From NCBI GenBank assembly GCA_021785515.1, contig JAJYEX010000001.1, positions 578,196-642,195 of the forward strand: a stretch of DNA of 64,000 bases, written 5' to 3'. Made by a program: the position numbers and the translations under genes. This stretch comes from Pseudomonadota bacterium (GTDB taxonomy: Bacteria > Pseudomonadota > Gammaproteobacteria > Acidiferrobacterales > UBA6901). Numbering within the stretch: position 1 is the first letter of the stretch; every line of letters begins with the position of its first letter. Below, one piece after another: positions 15,914 to 47,237 of this stretch. The notes below the pieces were generated by a model, which worked only from the letters and a program-made list of their open reading frames with translations, did not search any database and was not told the DNA's origin.

Positions 15914-15927
15914 TTGACGCGGGTCAA
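15914..15927. promoter_or_regulatory. FNR/Dnr-type palindrome TTGAC-GCGG-GTCAA upstream of ubiT
   Basis: Perfect dyad, 62 bp upstream of the ubiT start. Confidence 0.55.
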
Positions 15928-15988: not shown

Positions 15989-16492
15989 ATGCGCCTTCCG
16001 CTCCAGCCTGCCCTAGTCGGCCTGCGCGTGATACCGGAAACTGTCCACAGCCGGGTCATGGCGACCGTGCTCAACCACCTGCTGCGCGGCCAGGCCATCG
16101 AGCAGAGGCTTCCGGATCTCGAAGGGAAACGGGTAGACATCGAGATCTCCGACGCCCCCTGCACCCTGAGACTGCAGGTGTCCGGATCGAAAATACACGC
16201 CTGCTCCCAGAAATCGTCCATCTGCGACGTACGCATCCGGGGTACACTGGCGGATTACTGGAAGCTTGCCACCCGCTCCGAGGATCCCGACACCTTATTC
16301 TTTGCCCGCCGCCTGTGCCTGGAAGGCGACACTGAGACTGGTTTGTATATCAAGAACCTGCTGGACGCTCTGGAGTTCGACTGGCAGGCCCATACCGTGT
16401 CGGTACTGGGTCCGCGCCTCGGCCAGACCGTGAGCGGGCTGCTGCGCAATGTTGCAAGCACTGCGCCGATCTCGACGCGCAGACCCAGATAG
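15989..16492 (+). CDS. ubiT: SCP2-domain protein, UbiT (anaerobic ubiquinone biosynthesis accessory factor)
   Basis: SCP2-like fold sequence (LLRGQAIEQRLPDLEGKRVDIEISD...FARRLCLEGDTETGLYIKNLLDAL); ubiU/ubiV in the same window. Confidence 0.8.
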   Translation: MRLPLQPALVGLRVIPETVHSRVMATVLNHLLRGQAIEQRLPDLEGKRVDIEISDAPCTLRLQVSGSKIHACSQKSSICDVRIRGTLADYWKLATRSEDPDTLFFARRLCLEGDTETGLYIKNLLDALEFDWQAHTVSVLGPRLGQTVSGLLRNVASTAPISTRRPR

Positions 16493-33450: not shown

Positions 33451-34187
33451 TGTGGGTGCTTGTCGCGCTGTTTCTGCCTCTGTTCCCGCTGAGCGTGGTG
33501 CAGAACATGTTGCTTGCGAGAATACCCAGGCCGCTTGCGCGCAGCGCATTGCTGTTGCTTTTGCCACAAGTCGGGGTCACGCTGCTGCATACACTGCATC
33601 CGCCGATTCCTGGCTTTCTCGTCACTTGGGCGCTGCTGAGCTCCGCCTTCTATGCGCTGCGGTTGCTCACCGTACGTGATTTGGAGCTGTGGTCAGGCCT
33701 GTTCGTCAGCTCTGCGCTAGCGCTGACGTGGGGTGTGGCCGCCCGGGGAGCGGACGTGACGACGCTGCGGCTGTTTGCGTTTTGGTTTAGCCTGCCAGCA
33801 ACGCTGCTGGTTCTGCTAACCGCCTCGCTCGCACGACGCATGGGGGCGGCATACGCTGGCCTGTTTACAGGCCTTGCCCAGAGTCAGCCACGGTTGGCCG
33901 GCGTACTCACCCTCGTCGTGCTGAGCATCATTGCCACACCGCCCTTTCCCGGTTTTTTTGCCCTGCTCGATATTTTACATGGATTTGGCGGCGCGGCTGC
34001 GCTCAGCGTACTCGGCGTCTGGTTGATCTGGGGATGGGCGGCTACCCGAGTATTGCAGGGCTTTAATTCCAGCAACGGCCGCGAAATCTCTGGCGGCGAT
34101 CTGGGAATGAGCAGCGTGGTGGGCTATGCCGTCACCCTTGTGGTTTTTGCGGCGGCTGGTTTTCTGTTCACTCGAGGCGGCCTATGA
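33450..34187 (+). CDS. NuoM/N-like truncated antiporter-fold membrane protein inside the DAB operon
   Basis: About 245 aa, highly hydrophobic; TPPFPGFFALLDILHGF resembles the PPxxGFxxK segment of complex I antiporter subunits; TGATG overlap with dabB, ATGA overlap with dabA. Confidence 0.7.
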   Translation: MWVLVALFLPLFPLSVVQNMLLARIPRPLARSALLLLLPQVGVTLLHTLHPPIPGFLVTWALLSSAFYALRLLTVRDLELWSGLFVSSALALTWGVAARGADVTTLRLFAFWFSLPATLLVLLTASLARRMGAAYAGLFTGLAQSQPRLAGVLTLVVLSIIATPPFPGFFALLDILHGFGGAAALSVLGVWLIWGWAATRVLQGFNSSNGREISGGDLGMSSVVGYAVTLVVFAAAGFLFTRGGL

Positions 34188-37100
34188 GTCTCACGCTCGG
34201 ACGTCGGTTGCGGATCCGCGCGATGGTGCACGTGGCTGGGGAACCAATCCCTTTTCTGTGGCCAATGCGCACCTTTATTCATCACAATCCGCTCTACGGT
34301 CTTGAGCACCTGCCTTTTGCGGAGGCAGTGCGGCAAGGCAGACGCTTATTTCACGCACGAGGTTTTTTGCCGCGCGCTCTGTATCAGCGTTACCTCGCTC
34401 AGGGAACGGTGGATGTGGACACACTCGCGCAACAGGTTCGATGCTTTCTCGCTGGTGCGCCCGCACTCGAGGGCATAAATCTGCATAAGCTGCTGATGAC
34501 GCTACTTACCGAGACCTCAGCAGCTGTCACCGCACGCGTTACCTTGGCGGAGGCTGGCGACATTCACGCCGCACTCACCGGCGCAGCTTTGCCGGCCTGC
34601 GCTGTCGACCAGGCTGCGCTGGCTGCGCAGGTCAAGACCGCGCTGCCGTTTGATTGTCCGGTTTACGTTGGCGTCGACGAACTGTTCGGTACGGATATCG
34701 GAACAACCCTGGACGAGCTGGTCGTAAAGAGCTGTCTCGACTTTTTTGACGAAGGCCAGTCTGTGTGGCAGATGCCAGGTCGCGAGCATGGCCTGTTTGC
34801 GGCCTGGAGCGCGCTAGCGCGTCGTAACCTGAGGCTGTTTATTCGGGGGTTGCACATTCAGCGAATCCTTGCGCAGGGCGACACACCGGAAGGTATCATC
34901 AGTTACGTGATGGGCGAGCTGCGCGTGCCTGAAGAGGCCTGGGTGGAGTATTTTGAGCGTTCTTTGGCCCGCCTGCATGGCTGGGCAGGATTCATTCAAT
35001 GGCGTTCGGGCGCGAAACATTATCACTGGGGGCAACGCTATCCCGCTGATCTGGTCGACTATCTCGCCATACGTCTGGTTTTAGGATTGGCACTGCTGCG
35101 GGAGCACGCTACACGTCTGAAGGCACCAGGCGACGCCGAATCGCTCGCACGCTTTATCGACGAGCGCCCTGCGGAGGCCTATTTGCGCCGCGAATATTAC
35201 GGCAAATACGTACTGCCGGAAATGGCACGCGTTGTCGGGGATACCATCGCAAGCGGACGGAGGGCACGCATTGAGCGGCTGTTGCCCACGTACCTTGCGC
35301 GCAAACGCGCGGACGAGGCAAATCGCCAAGCTGCGGCGCTGCGCGGGCTTGCCGACCGTGCCGGGCTTGGCGTTGCTCTGTCGCACCTAACGCCCGATGA
35401 ACTTGGAATCTTGCTGGCGACATTATCCCGTTTTGAGCACGCCGAGGGCCCAATGTGGCTGGCAGCACAGGAAGCGCATTATCTGAAACAGCTGGCGGGT
35501 GGACTGGATCTGAACTTGTCGGCGCCGCGAGCAAAGCGGCCGTTTGCACAGCTTTTGTTCTGTATCGACGTACGCTCTGAACGCATCCGCCGGCATCTGG
35601 AACGGATTGGCGACTACCAGACCTTTGGTATTGCCGGTTTCTTTGGCATTCCGGTTGGCTTTATCGGCCTGGACAAGGGCAGTGAAACCGATCTTTGTCC
35701 GGTAGTAGTCACTCCCAAAAATCTGGTACTTGAGCTCGCCATAGCGCGCAACCCGGAAGACCAGGCGTTTGTTTCAGTGCTCGAGCACGTTTTTCATGAT
35801 CTTAAGGCCTCGGTGCTGTCGCCCTACATTACCGTCGAAGCGATCGGCTTGCTGTTTGGGCTGGACATGTTTGGCAAGACGCTTGCGCCACTTGCCTACA
35901 ACCGCTGGCGCAGCCGGCTTCATCCGGAGAAGCCGGACAGCCGGCTGTTGCTGGACAAGATCACGCGCGAGCAGGCCGATTCAGTCATACGCGCCTTGCA
36001 GCGGGCCATGATCGTTAAGGCGCTGGGCAGCGAGCTCGGCATTGAACGCGAAGCGATTACCGATGAAATGATCCGCGAGCTGCGCGAGACCGCGCTCGAC
36101 CATCAGGCAACGGCCACCGGCTTTGCGCAGCGCTTCAAGTTGAGCGCCGATGCGGAACGCCACTTCATCGAGCGCCTGCGCTCGGCCTACCGCATCAATC
36201 GGCACTACACGCAACTTCAGCTCGAACGACTGGGCCGGATCGGCTTCACGCTCGACGAGCAGGTGAACTTCGTCGCTCAGGCGTTGCGTTCCATCGGTCT
36301 GATTGCCGGCTTCTCGCGCTTCGTGCTGCTGGCGGGTCACGGCAGCACCACCGAAAACAACCCTTACGAATCGGCCCTTGACTGCGGCGCCTGCGGCGGC
36401 AATCACGGCATCATCAGCGCCCGGGTACTTGCTCAGATCGCAAACAAGCCGTTGGTGCGCGAGCGTCTACGTAACCAGGGAATCGACATTCCCGACGACG
36501 CATGGTTCGTGCCGGCGTTTCACAATACCACCACCGACGAGCTGCGGCTATGCGATCTCGATCTGCTGCCTGCGAGTCATTTGGTCTACATGGAGCGTCT
36601 GAGTAACGGGCTGCAGGCCGCCGCGCATCTGTGCGCCGCAGAACGCATGCCCGCCCTGGATTACCGCGACTTCAACGCCGATTCGATGAGCGCCTACCGT
36701 ACCGCGCGGCGCAACTCGCTGGACTGGTCTCAGGTCCGACCTGAATGGGGCTTGTCACGCAACGCTGCCTTTATTATCGGCCGCCGCCAGCTCACTCAAG
36801 CGCTGGATCTCAACGGCCGGGCATTCCTGCATTCCTATGATTACCGTTGCGACCTTCGAGGGCGTTTGCTGGAAACCATTTTGAGCGGTCCGCTTGTTGT
36901 CGGTCAGTGGATCAACATGGAACATTACTTTTCGGCTGTGGACAATGCGCACTACGGCAGCGGAAGCAAGGTCTACCACAACATCGCCGGCCGCTTTGGC
37001 GTCATGACCGGAAATCTGTCTGACCTGCGTACCGGTCTGCCAGCGCAAACTGTGCTCAAGAACGGTGTTCCCTACCACGAGCCGCTGCGGCTGATCACGG

Positions 37101-37303
37101 TGATCGAGGCACCGTTTGGTCACGCCCAACGCGCCATCGACAGCGTCGCAAACGTGCGCAACCTGGTCCACAACGGCTGGGTACGTATGGCGATCGCCGA
37201 TCCGGATACGCAAATTCTGCACGTTTTTGAAGACGGTGCATGGCAACCGCGCATTCTTTCTGTTGCAGGCGACCAAGGCGCAATCCAGGAGCTCAGGATA
37301 TGA
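34184..37303 (+). CDS. dabA: DabA (DUF2309), zinc-dependent beta-CA-like subunit
   Basis: CIDVRSERIRRHLE and GHGSTTENNPYESALDCGACGGNHG zinc/catalytic motifs. Confidence 0.93.
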   Translation: MSLTLGRRLRIRAMVHVAGEPIPFLWPMRTFIHHNPLYGLEHLPFAEAVRQGRRLFHARGFLPRALYQRYLAQGTVDVDTLAQQVRCFLAGAPALEGINLHKLLMTLLTETSAAVTARVTLAEAGDIHAALTGAALPACAVDQAALAAQVKTALPFDCPVYVGVDELFGTDIGTTLDELVVKSCLDFFDEGQSVWQMPGREHGLFAAWSALARRNLRLFIRGLHIQRILAQGDTPEGIISYVMGELRVPEEAWVEYFERSLARLHGWAGFIQWRSGAKHYHWGQRYPADLVDYLAIRLVLGLALLREHATRLKAPGDAESLARFIDERPAEAYLRREYYGKYVLPEMARVVGDTIASGRRARIERLLPTYLARKRADEANRQAAALRGLADRAGLGVALSHLTPDELGILLATLSRFEHAEGPMWLAAQEAHYLKQLAGGLDLNLSAPRAKRPFAQLLFCIDVRSERIRRHLERIGDYQTFGIAGFFGIPVGFIGLDKGSETDLCPVVVTPKNLVLELAIARNPEDQAFVSVLEHVFHDLKASVLSPYITVEAIGLLFGLDMFGKTLAPLAYNRWRSRLHPEKPDSRLLLDKITREQADSVIRALQRAMIVKALGSELGIEREAITDEMIRELRETALDHQATATGFAQRFKLSADAERHFIERLRSAYRINRHYTQLQLERLGRIGFTLDEQVNFVAQALRSIGLIAGFSRFVLLAGHGSTTENNPYESALDCGACGGNHGIISARVLAQIANKPLVRERLRNQGIDIPDDAWFVPAFHNTTTDELRLCDLDLLPASHLVYMERLSNGLQAAAHLCAAERMPALDYRDFNADSMSAYRTARRNSLDWSQVRPEWGLSRNAAFIIGRRQLTQALDLNGRAFLHSYDYRCDLRGRLLETILSGPLVVGQWINMEHYFSAVDNAHYGSGSKVYHNIAGRFGVMTGNLSDLRTGLPAQTVLKNGVPYHEPLRLITVIEAPFGHAQRAIDSVANVRNLVHNGWVRMAIADPDTQILHVFEDGAWQPRILSVAGDQGAIQELRI

Positions 37304-37635
37304 ACGATCTGAAACTTAGTCCATTCAAGAAACTTGAGATTATTCTCGAAGGCGCTCATAAAGAGTTTGCCGCCGATCTTCTTGACCGTGCAGGCGTCAG
37401 CGGCTACACGATCGTGAATAACCTGTCCGGCAAGGGGCGGCATGGCTTCCATGAAGGCCATCTGATGTTCAACGAGGACGCCGTGTTGATCATGATCATC
37501 GTGGCCGTACCTGAAGAGCTGGTGGAACCGATTCTCGAGGGTTTTGCGCCGTTTTTCGACAGGCACACCGGTGTCGTGTTTATTTCAGACATTCGGGTAA
37601 GCCGTCCAGTCAAATTCCGCAGCCGCGAAGGCTAA
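37300..37635 (+). CDS. PII-like nitrogen-regulator-fold protein associated with DAB
   Basis: ferredoxin-like/PII pattern (KLEIILEGAHKEFAADLLDRAGVSGYTIVNNLSGKGRHGFHEGHLMFNEDAVLIMIIVAVPEE); ATGA overlap with dabA. Confidence 0.8.
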   Translation: MNDLKLSPFKKLEIILEGAHKEFAADLLDRAGVSGYTIVNNLSGKGRHGFHEGHLMFNEDAVLIMIIVAVPEELVEPILEGFAPFFDRHTGVVFISDIRVSRPVKFRSREG

Positions 37636-39084: not shown

Positions 39085-40284
39085 CTAGGCGACTGAAGCC
39101 GGTACCTGTGTCACATGCGCAAAGTCGATACTGACACGATCTCCGGCAGCTGACCGGAACCATTGGTTGGCGAACGCGACATGGTCAGGATGATCACGGT
39201 AACTGTCGATCACGCTTTGACTGGCGAACTCTACCAGCCAGCAAAAGCGATATTTCGGCTCTTCGGACACCGCCCAACCGGTCACGACACGACGCACGCC
39301 GGGGATCCTCGCTAACACCTCGCGCCCGCGAGCCATGATGTTCTCGACCTGGGTATCCTCGATACCATTCACGTTGTAAACGATGACATGCTCCACCGGA
39401 TTGAATCGCCGCGCGGCAGCGAGTACAGCCTCAGCGCGATTGGCGCCGCCAAAGACCTGAATCATGCGCTCTACCTCGGCTTGGATAGCACCACGCACAC
39501 CGTTCATGAGGCCGGTGTAACCAGCGCGTGAATCCCTCAGCATGTTCACGCGCATGCGCCCGGCAGCTGCGTCGGCGAGTGCGGTGTAATAGTTGATCTT
39601 GGCCGTGCCATTTTCGATAAGCTTATGGTATTGATCGTCGCTAAGCCCCGTACCTCCGTGAATCACAAGCGGGATATGCAGCACCTCATTGATGCGCGCC
39701 AGACGTTCGAAATCGAGCTTTGGCGCGCCGCGCATGCGGCCGTGCACCGTACCGATGGACACCGCAAGAAAGTCGACACCGGTGCGCTCGACGTAGGCGC
39801 ACGACTCTTCTGCCGATGTATAAACCACCTTGCCAGGGTGCTTCTCGGCATCCTCACCCTCGACACCAGCCACGTAGCCCAGCTCCCCCTCGACCGGTAC
39901 ACCGCAGGCATGAGCGATCTGCACCACTGCGCACGTGGTTGTGACATTGGATTCGAATGGCACGCTTGATGCGTCCACCATCACACCGTTGCAACCGAGG
40001 TTGATGGCACGTGCAACGGATTCGGACGATGCGCCATGATCGAGATGAATGGCGACGGGCACACTGGCGCGCCGCGCTGCGGCGGCGGTCGCCGCCATCG
40101 TGAGCTCGAAGTCGTAGTATTCGAAGTGCGACTCGGCGAGTGACAGGATTACCGGTGCGCACCGCGCTTCGGCACCGGCGACAATCGCTTCCAGGAAATC
40201 CAGGGACACCAGGTCGAATGCGCCTACCGCATAGCGCTCCCGGAAGGTGTGGCCCAGCATGTCCTTCATATCAACCAGCGGCAT
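39085..40284 (-). CDS. class II fructose-bisphosphate aldolase fused to C-terminal Dabb (stress-responsive A/B barrel) domain
   Basis: N-terminal FBA-II (HLDHGASSESVARAINLGCNGVMVDASSVPF, PLVIHGGTGLSDDQYHKLIENGTAKINYYT); C-terminal VEHVIVYNVNG...RIPGVRRVVTGWAVSEEPKYRFCWLVEFASQSVIDSYRDHPDHVAFANQWF. Confidence 0.88.
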   Translation of the reverse strand: MPLVDMKDMLGHTFRERYAVGAFDLVSLDFLEAIVAGAEARCAPVILSLAESHFEYYDFELTMAATAAAARRASVPVAIHLDHGASSESVARAINLGCNGVMVDASSVPFESNVTTTCAVVQIAHACGVPVEGELGYVAGVEGEDAEKHPGKVVYTSAEESCAYVERTGVDFLAVSIGTVHGRMRGAPKLDFERLARINEVLHIPLVIHGGTGLSDDQYHKLIENGTAKINYYTALADAAAGRMRVNMLRDSRAGYTGLMNGVRGAIQAEVERMIQVFGGANRAEAVLAAARRFNPVEHVIVYNVNGIEDTQVENIMARGREVLARIPGVRRVVTGWAVSEEPKYRFCWLVEFASQSVIDSYRDHPDHVAFANQWFRSAAGDRVSIDFAHVTQVPASVA

Positions 40285-40847: not shown

Positions 40848-42398
40848 TCACGGTTTCCGGCCATTGGCCACTGGAATAAGGGCGGCGACCTTGCGTACCA
40901 GGTCGATATTCAGCTGCGACTCGGCCTGGAAGGCGCCTGCGTAGGCGAAATCTTCCTGACGCAGCTCGTAGCAGTTCGCTCCACTGATGTCCACAAGCAC
41001 CGCCGGCAGGCCGGCTTCATCGAAAGCCAAGCGGCGTTTGAGGTAAAAATTGCCGCAGCACATGCCAACGTACGCTGTGGCGCCTTCGGCGCGAATACGC
41101 CCTAGCGTCTCCCGCAAGTGCTCATAATTATTGATGGAGATAACCCGCATCCGGCGCTCTCGCGCCAGCCGGTAGGCTTCGCCGACGTGACAGCGACCGC
41201 ATTCGGTACAGCCATCACGGAAGCGCCATTTACACCATAGCGGCTTAGCACAATAGGGAACCAGCATGACTGTGGCACAAGCAAGAATATCGCCAAGCAT
41301 CTGGTTGCGTTCGGGACTATGCACCATGAGCATGTTGGCATCGGCCGCATCGACTCCCAAGTCCGACTGTTCCTGCCTGTGGTTAACGGCCAGCTGCAGA
41401 ACGTAACGCAGATCCGGCATGGTCGCCCCCACCACCTCCCAGTCCCCATTCCCCAAGAACTGATCTAGGAGCACGTCAAGCTGTCCGACTTCCCCGCCGG
41501 TCAGTTGATGTTCGATCCGCCCGAACAGATCTGGCGGACTGACCTGAACGCTTCCCGACAGATGTATTCCGCGAACCACGGTCCCGTCGCCAACACCCAC
41601 TTCCGCGTGCAGGACACCGCCCGAAGTGCGGTGGAAGGCATGAAGAACGCTCTCCGAACCCGGCCGCGGGACAACATCGGCATCTGTAGAAAATTCAGCG
41701 GGATGTGGCAGACCATCTGAAGAAAAATTGAATTCTACGCCCAGGGCCGTGCCCAGCGATTTCGCCACCGCACACTCGATCTCGTCCAGCGATGGCGTCC
41801 TGCCAAGTTTCTGGCTCAGGGTAGCGAAGCGTTTGCGCGCAGTCTGAAGTCCCTGTGTCGAAAGTTTCTCGGTCGGCACGCGTAACACCTTAAGCATGGT
41901 GTCGACGTCTATGTCCAACAGCAGGCTCCCTTGAAACAGCATTCGGCATCCATTGTCCCGCAGGAAGCCGCAGGCAATCTTATGTCCATCAATTTCGACA
42001 TCGTTGAATGCCTGAAACGCGGCGGCCACCCCCAGTGCGCACAACGCCTCAGCCACCGCCCGACACAAACGTTCCAGCACTGCCGTCAGCGATTCTCCCG
42101 CGGCGCGCCCGCTTGGGGAGGGCATCGTCAAGCTCCAGAAAAGTTGCCGCTCATCCACATAGAGCGCGCCGCCGCCGGTCAGCCGCCGCGCAACCACGAT
42201 ATTGTGCTGCCGGCAATACTCGACCCGTGCGACTTTCTCAGCATCCTCATGGGCCCCTATGAGCACACTCGGCGCAAAGCGGTGGAACCGCAGCTGTCCG
42301 GCCTCGCCGGCAGCCTCAAGGGCGGACTTGTCCAGTCCGCAGTTGGCCCCAGCGGAGAGAATTCCGCTATCCCGCCACGTCCACCGCGGGTATGTCAC
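40848..42398 (-). CDS. lipoate-protein ligase A-type domain + LplA accessory (LplB-like) domain + DUF116 fusion
   Basis: LplA motifs (VARRLTGGGALYVDERQLFWSL, VEIDGHKIACGFLRDNGCRMLFQGSLLLDID); accessory domain (GGVLHAEVGVGDGTVVRGIHLSGSVQVSPPD); cysteine-rich DUF116 tail (PLWCKWRFRDGCTECGRCHVGEAYRLA). Confidence 0.82.
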   Translation of the reverse strand: MTYPRWTWRDSGILSAGANCGLDKSALEAAGEAGQLRFHRFAPSVLIGAHEDAEKVARVEYCRQHNIVVARRLTGGGALYVDERQLFWSLTMPSPSGRAAGESLTAVLERLCRAVAEALCALGVAAAFQAFNDVEIDGHKIACGFLRDNGCRMLFQGSLLLDIDVDTMLKVLRVPTEKLSTQGLQTARKRFATLSQKLGRTPSLDEIECAVAKSLGTALGVEFNFSSDGLPHPAEFSTDADVVPRPGSESVLHAFHRTSGGVLHAEVGVGDGTVVRGIHLSGSVQVSPPDLFGRIEHQLTGGEVGQLDVLLDQFLGNGDWEVVGATMPDLRYVLQLAVNHRQEQSDLGVDAADANMLMVHSPERNQMLGDILACATVMLVPYCAKPLWCKWRFRDGCTECGRCHVGEAYRLARERRMRVISINNYEHLRETLGRIRAEGATAYVGMCCGNFYLKRRLAFDEAGLPAVLVDISGANCYELRQEDFAYAGAFQAESQLNIDLVRKVAALIPVANGRKP

Positions 42399-43294
42399 GG
42401 ATTCAGACCGGCCAGCCAGTCCATTCCGGCTGCACCGCGCCAGAAGCCGTTGCAGGGGCTGGCCGACCCTGCCCGCGCCACCGCCACCGCCGCTTCCTCC
42501 AACATGGCGTCGTCGTCCACGGCGCGACGGAACCAGCTAATGACCGTCTCCATATCTTTTGACTGCGGCGAAAGACGCAGCACATCCACTCCCAGCTCCT
42601 GCAGCACCGGCAGCTCGGGCAGGAGATTAACCGTGTGGCCTGACTGGACCTGTATGCCATTCAGTGCCAGAAACTGCTGCCCCTCACGCGTCTCCAGATC
42701 CATTCCGTCTGGATGGTCGGCACAGCAAAACTGGCAACTGTCCTTGGGCAACCTGTGGGCCCGCGCCGTAAAACAGCGCGCGGAAAAAGCGAGCGGCAAA
42801 CGTCCGAAGGCAAAGACCTCAGTCTCCATCCCTTCCGGCCGCTGCGACTGCAGCTGCGCAATCGCGTCCCCGCCGAGTTCAAGCGGTGGTACCCAGCGTA
42901 TGGCGCCGAGATCGGCGATCAGCTTAAGCGTTTCGCGGTTATAGATGTTGATATGCGGCCCGGCAATGAAAGGAACACGATTGCAGACCATGCTTACTGC
43001 AGCCATGTCGTTGGCCTCAATACGGAACCGGCCGTTTTCTGCAATGCGCCGCATGCGGCTCAGCTCCGAAGCGGCCTCAACCAGCACCAACGTCGACAGC
43101 ACCACCTCCTTGCCCCTTGCCGCCAGTCGGTCTGCAATATCTAACCAGTCTTTTGTGGTCAGTGCGCGCCGCTTGGCACAGACGACCTCCCCCAGGTAGA
43201 CGATGTCCACGGGCAGTTCCTCGGTGCGTTCATAAAACCGCATCACGGTATCCCGATCCCAGAAATACTGAATTGGACCCAGCGAGAGTTTCAT
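42395..43294 (-). CDS. ubiV: U32-family Fe-S protein UbiV (O2-independent ubiquinone hydroxylation)
   Basis: MKLSLGPIQYFWDRDTVMRFYE; Cys cluster CFTARAHRLPKDSCQFCCADHPDG. Confidence 0.88.
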   Translation of the reverse strand: MKLSLGPIQYFWDRDTVMRFYERTEELPVDIVYLGEVVCAKRRALTTKDWLDIADRLAARGKEVVLSTLVLVEAASELSRMRRIAENGRFRIEANDMAAVSMVCNRVPFIAGPHINIYNRETLKLIADLGAIRWVPPLELGGDAIAQLQSQRPEGMETEVFAFGRLPLAFSARCFTARAHRLPKDSCQFCCADHPDGMDLETREGQQFLALNGIQVQSGHTVNLLPELPVLQELGVDVLRLSPQSKDMETVISWFRRAVDDDAMLEEAAVAVARAGSASPCNGFWRGAAGMDWLAGLNP

Positions 43295-43351
43295 TCGGCC
43301 TCTGCGATACTGTAAATCAAGTGAAGCGGATGACGCTGACACGGTTAGCTG

Positions 43352-44371
43352 CTACTGCCAAGCCCGTTCAATAGCACCAAGCGTATGCTGCCGCCCTTCC
43401 GCCAGCCGATCCAGCTCGACGATCCATTCCGGCTGAACGACATAACCATCTGGGTCGTGCATACAGGCATCCAGCGCAGTCCGCAGGACACGCGTGACCT
43501 GCCCCACATACGCGGGGCTGCGCTGCCGCCCCTCCACCTTTATGGCCGCCACGCCTGATTTCAGAAGCTCCGGTAGGATTCCGAGCACGTTAAGGCTGGT
43601 GGGTTCCTCCAGCGCGTAGGCAGGGGACTGGTCGGCCCCTCCCTGCACTACGAACCGACCCTTGCACAACGTGGGGTAACCGGCACTCTCACCCGGGCCG
43701 TACACGTCGATGAGCACACCATTCAGGCGCGATCGGCGGACGCTGCCAGCCTCCTCCCAGCGCACGGCCTTGGCCGGAGAACAGACACCGCAGGTATTAG
43801 GGGACTCTCCAGTAACATAGGACGACAGCGCACAACGACCCTCAACCATCACGCACAGACTTCCGAAGCCGAATACCTCGACCTCCACAGGGGCACCACT
43901 GATCACGTAACGCACCTGGCTGAGCGAGAGCACGCGCGGCAACACAACCCGCTGCACGCCGAATTGGCGTGCGTAGAATCCGATGGCCTCGGGATTGGTC
44001 GCTGAGGCCTGCACCGACAGATGAAGCCGCAACGTCGGATGGCGCTCCCGGCAATAGCGCATCAGCCCCGGATCCGCGAGAATGATCGCGTCCGCGCCCA
44101 GATCTGCAGCAGTGTCTGCCGCACGTGTCCAGTCCGCCCATTGTCCCACGCGGGCATAGGTATTAAGCGCCAGAAACACGCGCGCCCCATGCTGATGCGC
44201 GTATTCAATGCCGCGACGCATGTCGTTGTTATCGAAATTCAGGCCCGCGAAATTGCGGGCGTTGGTGGCATTGCGGAAACCCAGGTATACAGCATCCGCG
44301 CCATGATCGACGGCCGTTCTGAGCGCCGGCATACTGCCGGCGGGACAAACCAGTTCGAGCCGGCGGTTCAA
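43352..44371 (-). CDS. ubiU: U32-family Fe-S protein UbiU
   Basis: LELVCPAGSMPALRTAVDHGADAVYLGF; CVMVEGRCALSSYVTGESPNTCGVC. Confidence 0.9.
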   Translation of the reverse strand: MNRRLELVCPAGSMPALRTAVDHGADAVYLGFRNATNARNFAGLNFDNNDMRRGIEYAHQHGARVFLALNTYARVGQWADWTRAADTAADLGADAIILADPGLMRYCRERHPTLRLHLSVQASATNPEAIGFYARQFGVQRVVLPRVLSLSQVRYVISGAPVEVEVFGFGSLCVMVEGRCALSSYVTGESPNTCGVCSPAKAVRWEEAGSVRRSRLNGVLIDVYGPGESAGYPTLCKGRFVVQGGADQSPAYALEEPTSLNVLGILPELLKSGVAAIKVEGRQRSPAYVGQVTRVLRTALDACMHDPDGYVVQPEWIVELDRLAEGRQHTLGAIERAWQ

Positions 44372-45324
44372 CTAACCAGACCCTCAGCGACATGCCCGGA
44401 AAGCCGGCGGCGCAGCGCAGCGCCTTGCATGGTCCCACGGCGGCGCAATGCCGCCTCTATGCCGTTGAGAACCCGCCACTTGTGCCCACACCATGCCGGA
44501 GCCAGCAGGATGTTTGAAGCGGCTGTGCCTGTCACCCGGTGATAGATTACCTCCTCCGGTGTCATTTCAATCAGATCCGCTGCAAGCTCGATATACTCCT
44601 GCTCGGCCAACGGCCGATAGGTGCCATGGCGCCACTCGTTTGCAAGCTGGGTGCCTTTCACAACATGCAGCGGATGCAGTTTTAGACCATCCACGCCGAG
44701 ATCGAGAACGCGCGCCAGAGTCGTGCGGAAATGAGTGGCTTCCTCGCCTGGAAGTCCCAGAATGAGATGAGTGCAGACTGACAGTCCGCGGGAACGTGCC
44801 GCACGGACGGCGGTACGGTATTCGGCATAGTTGTGGCCGCGGTTCACACGGCGGAGGGTCGCGTCGAAACTCGACTGCAATCCGAGCTCAAGCCATACCT
44901 CGACGCCTGACTCGTGATATCCCTGTAGCAGATCGAGCACGTCTGCCGGTACGCAGTCCGGTCGTGTTCCTACGGCCATTCCGATCACGCCCGGCTGTGC
45001 TAGCGCCTCATCATACCGTGCCCGCAGCGCATCGACGCTGTCATAGGTGTTGGTATAGGCCTGAAAGTAAGCAAGCACGTATTGTGCCCCTGTTCGACGG
45101 GCGACCACGGCACGACCAGCCTCGATCTGGGTGACGACCGGGGACGGCTGGCGCCCATTCGGGCTGAACGATACGTTGTTGCAGAAGCTGCACCCGCCGC
45201 GTCCCTTGCTGTCGTCACGGTTCGGACAGGTAAAACCTGCATCCAGCGCGATCTTGTGGACCCGCTCGCCATAGCGGCGCAGCATGGCCTGCCCGAAAGT
45301 GGTGACATAGTCCGACAGCGCCAT
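44368..45324 (-). CDS. TIGR01212/YhcC-family radical SAM protein
   Basis: KIALDAGFTCPNRDDSKGRGGCSFCNN radical SAM motif, VWLELGLQSSFDATLRRVNRGH. Confidence 0.88.
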   Translation of the reverse strand: MALSDYVTTFGQAMLRRYGERVHKIALDAGFTCPNRDDSKGRGGCSFCNNVSFSPNGRQPSPVVTQIEAGRAVVARRTGAQYVLAYFQAYTNTYDSVDALRARYDEALAQPGVIGMAVGTRPDCVPADVLDLLQGYHESGVEVWLELGLQSSFDATLRRVNRGHNYAEYRTAVRAARSRGLSVCTHLILGLPGEEATHFRTTLARVLDLGVDGLKLHPLHVVKGTQLANEWRHGTYRPLAEQEYIELAADLIEMTPEEVIYHRVTGTAASNILLAPAWCGHKWRVLNGIEAALRRRGTMQGAALRRRLSGHVAEGLVS

Positions 45325-45333
45325 TGGGCGAAA

Positions 45334-45966
45334 CTAGCCAACCTCGTCGAGAACGCGGCGACGGAACTTGGCCCCCATACCGGACGCAATGCTCGCGCAG
45401 GAATCCATGTCGACGCCGGACAGGCCATCAATGGCAGTCAGGGTAACTTCCGGCACGAAGTCGCCGGCGCGTCGCGCGAAATCGAGCAGGGAACGATAGG
45501 CTCCGGCAAGCTTCGGACGGCAATAGCGGTTGTAGAGAATCTCGTTCTGCGCATTCAGAGATATGGACAGCGCATCGATGTTGTCTTCGAGGTCCGGGGT
45601 CACGTCCCGGCCGTAGACCAGGTTCGCGAGACCGTCGGTATTGACACGTATGCGCGCTCCGCGAGCGCGCAGACGCGATGCGATCTCCAGGGACGTGTAA
45701 AGACGCAGGGTCGGTTCGCCAAGTCCGCAGAAGACCACCTCCTGGTATTGCTTGGGGTCCCCTACCGCATCGAGAATTTCGTCCGCAGTCGGCTCCCGGC
45801 GCAGACGCAGCGCGCAGCCCTGCACATTCCAGACGCCGTTGAATTTGGGGCAAAATCCACACCGCAAGGTGCAGCGGTTTGTGATGTTGAGATAACAGTT
45901 GCCGTGCAGGACGTACGAAACCGTCCCCCCGGGTGCCTCGAGGCAGGATGAAAGCTGATTACTCAT
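45334..45966 (-). CDS. TatD-linked type radical SAM protein
   Basis: LNITNRCTLRCGFCPKFNG (CxxxCxxC), VVFCGLGEPTLRL; start at MSNQLSS. Confidence 0.82.
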   Translation of the reverse strand: MSNQLSSCLEAPGGTVSYVLHGNCYLNITNRCTLRCGFCPKFNGVWNVQGCALRLRREPTADEILDAVGDPKQYQEVVFCGLGEPTLRLYTSLEIASRLRARGARIRVNTDGLANLVYGRDVTPDLEDNIDALSISLNAQNEILYNRYCRPKLAGAYRSLLDFARRAGDFVPEVTLTAIDGLSGVDMDSCASIASGMGAKFRRRVLDEVG

Positions 45967-46000
45967 ACCGGAATCTAAAGGCAAACGACAGGTTTTAACC

Positions 46001-46014
46001 TTGACTTGAATCAA
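46001..46014. promoter_or_regulatory. FNR-type box TTGAC-TTGA-ATCAA upstream of radical SAM/ubiUV/lplA-DUF116 operon
   Basis: 9 of 10 match, 35 bp upstream of the first start codon; embedded in CCTTGA...TCAAGG palindrome. Confidence 0.6.
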
Positions 46015-46245: not shown

Positions 46246-46572
46246 CTAACCTGTACTCCAAGCGCGGGGCCTGCGCATACCGGCCACCTTGCACGCCTGC
46301 TGCATATAGCCATACGGGAAGAGCTTGTAGAGGCGTTCGCGCCCCGAGCCGCCACCATATTTCTGGTCAAGAAACTTGATCACAAAGCGTGCGTCCGCGG
46401 CAATCCGGTGCTGGGTAAAGTAATCGCGCATGAAATCGAGCACCTCCCAATGCTCCGGTCCGAGATTGATGTTTTCCCGCCTGGCCAGTTCTTCGGCAAT
46501 GGCCTTGTTCCAATCTTCGGGGTCGACCAGAAATCCGTCGTTGTCTGTCGTGATCTGCGCCTGCGTAGCCAT
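46246..46572 (-). CDS. DsrC/TusE-family protein lacking the penultimate C-terminal cysteine
   Basis: DNDGFLVDPEDWNKAIAEELARRENINLGPEHWEVLDFMRDYF...KLFPYGYMQQACKVAGMRRPRAWSTG; retains QACKVAG Cys only. Confidence 0.88.
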   Translation of the reverse strand: MATQAQITTDNDGFLVDPEDWNKAIAEELARRENINLGPEHWEVLDFMRDYFTQHRIAADARFVIKFLDQKYGGGSGRERLYKLFPYGYMQQACKVAGMRRPRAWSTG

Positions 46573-46790: not shown

Positions 46791-47237
46791 ATGCGCCTGA
46801 CCGCTTTTTCAGACTACAGTCTCCGAGTGCTGCTCTATCTGGGCATGCATCGCGAACACCTGTCAACCATTCATGAAATTGCTGGATTTTATGGCATCTC
46901 CGAGAACCATCTCATGAAGGTTGTACACGCCCTGAGTCGACACGGTTATATTGAAACCCTCCGCGGAAAGGGGGGCGGTATGCGGCTACGGCTTACACCA
47001 GTGGAGATCAATGTTGGCGCGGTGGTGCGCACCACTGAGGCCGGCACTGCGCTGATCGAATGTTTTGATCCAGCCCACAGCCATTGCCCAATCATGCCAG
47101 CGTGCTTGTTGCGGGATGTTATGGCTAAGGCACTTGAAGCATTTTTCCTGACACTCGATCGCACCACACTGGCCGATCTGTTGCGCGCAGACCAACAGCT
47201 TGCGCCTCTCATGGAGGCTAGGCCACGCCTATCCTGA
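46791..47237 (+). CDS. nsrR: Rrf2-family NO-sensing regulator NsrR
   Basis: MRLTAFSDYSLRVLLYLGMH, EIAGFYGISENHLMKVVHALSRHGYIETLRGKGGGMRL, C...CPIMPAC cysteines. Confidence 0.87.
   Translation: MRLTAFSDYSLRVLLYLGMHREHLSTIHEIAGFYGISENHLMKVVHALSRHGYIETLRGKGGGMRLRLTPVEINVGAVVRTTEAGTALIECFDPAHSHCPIMPACLLRDVMAKALEAFFLTLDRTTLADLLRADQQLAPLMEARPRLS

Follow-up and report, generated by a model that had tools for sequence, protein, structure and literature searches.

A DUF116-bearing relative of the lipoate ligase sLpl(AB) in an FNR-boxed ubiUV operon: a candidate for lipoate assembly without oxygen

INTRODUCTION

Why does an operon for oxygen-independent ubiquinone synthesis end in a gene for a lipoate-ligase-like protein? 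The question is raised by a stretch of 64,000 nucleotides (hereafter the window; positions 578196-642195 of contig JAJYEX010000001.1, assembly GCA_021785515.1) in the 3.05 Mb genome of a Pseudomonadota bacterium. Five genes of the window run head to tail on the minus strand from 45966 to 40848 and encode a TatD-linked radical S-adenosylmethionine (SAM) protein, a second radical SAM protein of the MnmL/YtqA (YhcC) type, UbiU, UbiV and a fusion of LplA, LplB and DUF116 domains (hereafter LplA-DUF116). An interpretation made from the letters alone (the sequence-only reading) had proposed that all five may form a single undescribed O2-independent cofactor or maturation system. From the distribution across genomes, the best reading is that LplA-DUF116 belongs to the lipoate pathway of sulfur oxidation and not to ubiquinone synthesis. 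Because each partner has a distribution of its own, the operon is better read as several genes for O2-independent biosynthesis that are grouped by their regulation, one of them for lipoate assembly.

RESULTS

LplA-DUF116 occurs where LipS1 and UbiU coincide

The survey covered 369 genomes of the class, sampled evenly and from many families; the associations given here and below are from Fisher tests, which ignore relatedness. UbiU exceeded its cut-off in 92 genomes, LipS1 was found in 26 and DUF116 in 14, and 13 of these 14 DUF116 proteins were LplA-DUF116 fusions. All 13 fusion-bearing genomes have UbiU. The fusion was present in 10 of the 12 genomes having both LipS1 and UbiU (8 families), in none of the 14 with LipS1 and no UbiU, and in 3 of the 80 with UbiU and no LipS1; these last three come from one family (f124) and hold divergent, unlinked copies. 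The association of the fusion with LipS1 had p = 1.2e-10 overall and p = 2.4e-9 within the UbiU-bearing genomes, and that with UbiU within the LipS1-bearing genomes had p = 1.2e-5. LipS1 was detected in 47 of 50 fusion-bearing genomes, including that of the window.

The same pattern was observed among members of single families. In family f108, one genome (G322) combines UbiU and LipS1 with the fusion, here the last gene, another (G106) has an intact MnmL-UbiU-UbiV locus and neither LipS1 nor the fusion, and a third (G223) has LipS1 without UbiU and without the fusion. Families f123 and f2 gave similar contrasts. In the two Thioalkalivibrio genomes tested, LipS1 and the fusion occur and UbiU is absent. 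On this distribution, the new element is a predicted DUF116-bearing lipoate-assembly protein in an anaerobic ubiquinone operon, where LipS1 and UbiUV coincide.

As a separate observation, the three f124 copies (L021, L024 and L028) share one conserved neighbourhood and possibly represent a new use of the protein.

Neighbourhoods of LplA-DUF116

A scan of genome contigs gave 239 LplA-DUF116 loci, of which the best 80 were examined; adding those of the class sample and of the window gave a set of 94. Neighbouring loci were annotated by tblastn together with conservation-based calling. We observed that ubiU/ubiV adjoin the fusion in 42 of these best 80 of 239 loci and in 52 of the 94. The linkage thus extends well beyond close relatives, so that the lack of such linkage, which the sequence-only reading had named as refuting it, was not borne out; linkage was also seen for MnmL, which is adjacent to ubiU in 49 of 63 cases. 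Further neighbours of the fusion were UbiT, NrdD, NrdG, HemN and FNR-like regulators; by its gene content, the ubi-type neighbourhood brings together genes for biosynthesis without O2.

Fusions from archaea, Nitrospirae, Chloroflexi and other lineages mostly have LipS1, LipS2, GcvH or a LipT-like flavoprotein as neighbours. Those of Thioalkalivibrio and some alphaproteobacteria adjoin LipS1 and a separate sLplA that lacks DUF116. The genome of the window has on another contig (C4) a single cluster of sHdr, two GcvH/LbpA-like proteins, LipS1, sLplA, a LipT-like flavoprotein and LipS2, and the sLplA of this lipS1/lipS2 cluster is without DUF116. A gene set of this type (sHdr-LbpA-LipS1-sLpl-LipT-LipS2) is described for sulfur-oxidising bacteria in passages of PMC10332631.

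One genome (G207) has two LplA-DUF116 copies, one in a ubiUV operon (L025) and one alone (L033). Near the latter lies a relative of a gene that the window has at 39085-40284 (minus strand), which encodes a class II fructose-bisphosphate aldolase with a C-terminal Dabb fusion (PF01116 + PF07876).

DUF116 is the most conserved part of the fusion

The fusion gene (40848-42398, minus strand) encodes 516 amino acids and matches PF21948 and PF01976. Its ligase domain (LplA-B_cat, PF21948) spans residues 19-215 and scored 113 bits against a cut-off of 27, and DUF116 (PF01976) spans residues 375-478 and passed its Pfam cut-off over positions 40-143, with 28.5 bits against a cut-off of 25. The LplB-like segment in between (~250-345) has no Pfam match; its similarity is to chain 3r07_C, subunit 2 of an archaeal LplA (E 2e-6). 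The predicted structure of the fusion, with a mean predicted local distance difference test score (pLDDT) of 88.8, aligns with whole two-domain lipoate ligases. The RRxTGGG motif and the catalytic Lys are kept in the protein of the window, with H in place of R before the K.

Across the 94 sequences, the cysteines of DUF116 (383/389/397/400/403/448/476) are retained in 93-94, and DUF116 has a mean majority frequency of 0.76 versus 0.54 for the ligase domain. The catalytic-Lys position is retained in 42 of 42 unlinked proteins versus 46 of 52 ubi-linked ones. Since the proteins that have lost this Lys still retain DUF116, DUF116 is probably the working end of the fusion, and in some lineages the ligase part may serve mainly for docking. 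Modelled alone, DUF116 gave a confident structure (pLDDT 89). Neither sequence nor fold searches gave a solved relative; the best PDB match (E 0.015) had a weak Rossmann-like resemblance only. The cysteines would be consistent with an iron-sulfur (Fe-S) role of DUF116. The literature searched held no paper treating DUF116 together with lipoate, the DUF116 matches being unrelated, and a term search of PMC10332631 returned no mention of an LplA-DUF116 fusion.

In the LplA tree, the deepest fusions are mostly neighbours of LipS1/LipS2, LipT or GcvH. The proteobacterial fusions form a separate clade (99/99), a long-branched and mostly ubi-linked group with the Thioalkalivibrio copies nested inside. 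The DUF116-less sLplA proteins fall into one clade (98/91), placed together with the DUF116-bearing forms of archaea and others (95/99), and this grouping suggests that DUF116 was lost in sLpl(AB). Alternatively, DUF116 may have been gained on two branches; the outgroup is distant.

Operon layout and promoter

All five genes were found where the sequence-only reading had placed them, each passing the cut-off of its family, and the single FNR box, the tight packing, the 4-bp overlaps at 44368-44371 and 42395-42398 and the short remaining gaps were equally borne out. Two gene starts need correction. For the TatD-linked radical SAM gene (45334-45966, minus strand) the start is almost certainly the ATG at 45966 and not the TTG at 46014 given by the open-reading-frame list, because this TTG lies inside the FNR box and four relatives share the ATG. 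The UbiV gene itself is present as described (42395-43342, minus strand), and its start is probably the ATG at 43294, as alignments of homologues begin at residue 17.

The FNR box (TTGACttgaATCAA; 46001-46014, minus strand, coding strand TTGATTCAAGTCAA) has one mismatch to TTGAT-N4-ATCAA and is centred ~41 bp upstream of the ATG at 45966. A -10-like TAGATT lies downstream of it, at 45972-45977. With FNR at -41.5, transcription would start at or close to this ATG. Of the four nearest relatives, three show an equally spaced FNR-like box differing at 1-2 positions; in the fourth, the same TTGACTTATGTCAA was found by eye, the automatic scan having scored a site elsewhere. In all four, box, spacing and -10-like region resemble those of the window. 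Among 37 testable ubi-linked operons, 14 carry an upstream FNR box with at most one mismatch, which exceeds chance: upstream regions shuffled by mononucleotide had one in 0.27% of cases. Scans for promoters and terminators returned no signal exceeding shuffled sequences.

Upstream of the operon, at 46249-46572 (minus strand), lies a DsrC/TusE-like gene whose product has a single C-terminal Cys (QQACKVAGMRRPRAWSTG) and, unlike true DsrC, no penultimate one. We did not count this gene in the operon, since it is conserved in the four nearest relatives only. Divergent to it, at 46791-47237 (plus strand), is an Rrf2-family regulator whose NsrR/RirA-like scores fall short of the equivalog cut-offs. 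On the other side, at 34184-37635, genes for a large DUF2309/DabA-like protein, a small PII-like one and a LysR-type regulator stand in this order (by reading); they are probably an inorganic-carbon uptake set.

UbiU and UbiV belong to the known ubiquinone pathway

UbiU (43352-44371, minus strand), a subunit of the O2-independent ubiquinone hydroxylase, scored 533 bits against NF047963 (curated cut-off 440), and its partner subunit UbiV scored 405 bits against NF047965 (curated cut-off 275). The CX6CX16CX38C motif of UbiU is complete (residues 173/180/197/236), and UbiV has Cys 55 plus CX12CX3C (residues 190/203/207). Passages of PMC6747719 give CX6CX16CX38C and CXnCX12CX3C as the 4Fe-4S ligand motifs of UbiU and UbiV. 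The gene of the third member of the pathway, ubiT, is in the same window and unlinked to ubiU/ubiV (15989-16492, plus strand; SCP2 domain; NF047962, 134 bits, cut-off 46.9); an FNR-like site 5' of it (15914-15927, plus strand, TTGACGCGGGTCAA) has two mismatches and is a pattern match only. In the portions of the literature consulted, FNR control of ubiTUV and the UbiUVT-dependent anaerobic ubiquinone of E. coli are described in PMC10470549, and loci with ubiT at a distance in PMC11707229. As the Fe-S motifs are complete and the window has ubiT at another place, the UbiU/UbiV part is, by these sequence features, the known O2-independent ubiquinone pathway, and ordinary.

It was also noted in the sequence-only reading that LplA-DUF116 and the radical SAM partners were not known to act in the ubiquinone pathway. 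This was right and is in line with the searched passages of PMC6747719, PMC10470549 and PMC11707229, which make no mention of MnmL, the TatD-linked radical SAM protein or LplA-DUF116 as partners.

The two radical SAM genes have distributions of their own

The TatD-linked radical SAM protein scored 235 bits against TIGR04038 (cut-off 130) and has a CX3CX2C motif at residues 32-39. The MnmL/YtqA-type protein (44368-45324, minus strand) reached 362 bits against TIGR01212, twice the equivalog cut-off of 180, with its radical SAM cysteines at 33/45/48. In the class survey, MnmL was present in 64 genomes, 63 of them also with UbiU, and was adjacent to ubiU in 49 of the 63; its association with LipS1 within the UbiU-bearing genomes was not significant (p = 0.095). 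The TatD-linked protein was found in 56 genomes, 37 of them with UbiU (p = 9e-13), and so in less than half of the UbiU genomes.

NCBI names TIGR01212 as a tRNA wobble-uridine enzyme, and a review (PMC12548931) pairs MnmL with MnmC for nm5s2U. The activity by which MnmL/YtqA is defined is the conversion of cmnm5U to nm5U in tRNA, as a substitute for the oxidase domain of MnmC. No MnmC oxidase exceeded the cut-off in the genome of the window, and such an oxidase occurs in just 3 of 60 UbiU genomes, which is compatible with MnmL standing in generally, its activity being only predicted. As the oxidase is so rare, MnmL may be the sole nm5U route in UbiU genomes. We also considered MnmL as an anaerobic backup for the O2-dependent MnmC oxidase; this idea is weakened, since there is usually no oxidase to back up. 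The nearly exclusive tie of MnmL to UbiUV in the class, seen even in genomes with no MnmC oxidase, is a second, independent lead.

DISCUSSION

With moderate confidence, we read the locus as an FNR-controlled operon for anoxic biosynthesis that carries a DUF116-bearing relative of sLpl(AB) for O2-free lipoate assembly of the LipS type. The host would be a facultatively anaerobic proteobacterium with sHdr-type sulfur oxidation. UbiU and UbiV, together with UbiT from elsewhere, would carry out the O2-independent hydroxylations of ubiquinone synthesis, and MnmL would probably modify wobble uridines of tRNA. LplA-LplB-DUF116 would be made under anoxia, and its most likely use would be the lipoylation of LbpA and perhaps of GcvH. 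Octanoate or lipoate destined for the carrier protein would be bound, and in most members activated, by the LplA-LplB part. DUF116 would contribute an O2-labile Fe-S centre and aid sulfur insertion by LipS1/LipS2 through a supply of cluster, sulfur or electrons. The DUF116-less sLpl(AB) would serve otherwise, and the DUF116-bearing ligase would keep LipS1/LipS2-dependent lipoylation going without O2. A fuller version, which we hold tentatively and think rather doubtful, makes LplA-DUF116 the anoxic branch of lipoate assembly: an Fe-S ligase kept from anaerobic, archaea-like ancestors, feeding cluster, sulfur or electrons to LipS1/LipS2 on the octanoylated carrier and, in facultative sulfur oxidisers, replacing sLpl(AB) without O2, controlled by the FNR switch that also swaps aerobic for anaerobic ubiquinone synthesis.

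Several points weigh against a role in lipoate assembly. The three f124 genomes carry the divergent unlinked fusion with UbiU and without LipS1, and two genomes (G035 and G186) have LipS1 and UbiU without the fusion. The tests ignore relatedness, the genomes are a sample, and the LipS1 matches (~169-206 bits) fall under the NCBI cut-off of 230 bits for nearly all proteobacterial copies. The branch of the outgroup in the LplA tree is very long. The co-occurrence with LipS1 is probably also one with sHdr-LbpA, so that the fusion may serve the use of LbpA rather than its making. The loss of the catalytic Lys in 6 of 52 ubi-linked proteins means that ligation may not be the point. The genome already holds sLplA and other LplA/LipB-type proteins, and the need for another is unexplained.

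Could the fusion instead be a dedicated partner of UbiU/UbiV, such as a missing electron-transfer protein? The adjacency to ubiU/ubiV in 52 of 94 loci, the presence of UbiU in all 13 fusion-bearing genomes of the class, the Cys-rich DUF116 and the Lys-less ubi-linked copies would all fit, and the electron acceptor of UbiUV is reported as unidentified in a passage of PMC6747719. However, 79 of the 92 UbiU genomes lack the fusion, among them G106 with its intact MnmL-UbiU-UbiV locus; E. coli, which has UbiUVT-dependent anaerobic ubiquinone according to the consulted part of PMC10470549, gave no DUF116 match as a control genome; the fusion adjoins LipS1 in UbiU-less Thioalkalivibrio and archaeal genomes; and the association with LipS1 within the UbiU-bearing genomes would not be expected. 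We therefore consider a UbiUV partner quite improbable.

An ordinary spare ligase for lipoate salvage, placed under FNR by chance and with DUF116 as a structural appendage, also appears unlikely, if a little less so. The mostly kept ligase motifs and catalytic Lys and the full two-domain ligase fold predicted would suit it, but it leaves unaccounted for the higher conservation of DUF116 than of the ligase domain, with seven near-invariant Cys, and the retention of DUF116 in Lys-less copies; a restriction to LipS1 genomes would be unexpected for general salvage. The single pathway for all five genes, as the sequence-only reading had proposed, is the least probable of these and in our view very improbable, for all that tight packing, one promoter and repeated co-location in many lineages speak for it. 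The numbers of genomes differ widely (UbiU 92, MnmL 64, TatD-linked radical SAM 56 and LplA-DUF116 13 of 369), and many operons lack one or more of these genes. The fusion tracks LipS1 and also occurs without UbiU, MnmL follows UbiUV generally, and the TatD-linked protein is missing from most UbiU genomes. Of that interpretation the linkage, the FNR box and the identities of UbiU and UbiV stand, and the common pathway is not supported.

Under the lipoate-assembly reading, three FNR-timed tasks (ubiquinone synthesis, tRNA modification and lipoate assembly) would be joined in one operon. DUF116, a widespread domain of unknown function, would gain a concrete context in lipoate assembly with LipS1/LipS2. 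Lipoylation for sulfur oxidation may come in separate oxic and anoxic forms, which would bear on the use of the sHdr pathway by denitrifying sulfur oxidisers.

Finally, we compared the locus with known systems. It agrees with the UbiTUV pathway in the family cut-offs passed, the exact published Fe-S Cys spacings and the upstream FNR box, and an unlinked UbiT is one of the architectures in the consulted parts of PMC6747719, PMC10470549 and PMC11707229; it differs in that the run here adds MnmL, the TatD-linked radical SAM protein and LplA-DUF116. The MnmL/YtqA-type protein resembles its family (TIGR01212) in score and radical SAM cysteines, but in this class the family is almost confined to UbiU genomes and is mostly ubiU-adjacent. 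DUF116 passes its Pfam cut-off and is here fused to a lipoate ligase. With sLpl(AB) the fusion shares the LplA catalytic motifs, including the Lys, and a fused LplB accessory domain; unlike sLpl(AB), it has a C-terminal DUF116, falls in a separate clade and lies in a ubiUV operon, not beside lipS1/lipS2. Judged by these features, it is a DUF116-bearing relative of sLpl(AB) and not sLpl(AB) itself. With the sLpl(AB)-LipS1/LipS2-LipT system of PMC10332631 as a whole, it has in common a related LplA-LplB architecture, the co-occurrence with LipS1 and, in archaea, Thioalkalivibrio and some alphaproteobacteria, LipS1/LipS2/LipT as neighbours, whereas in the window the fusion sits in an FNR/UbiUV operon.

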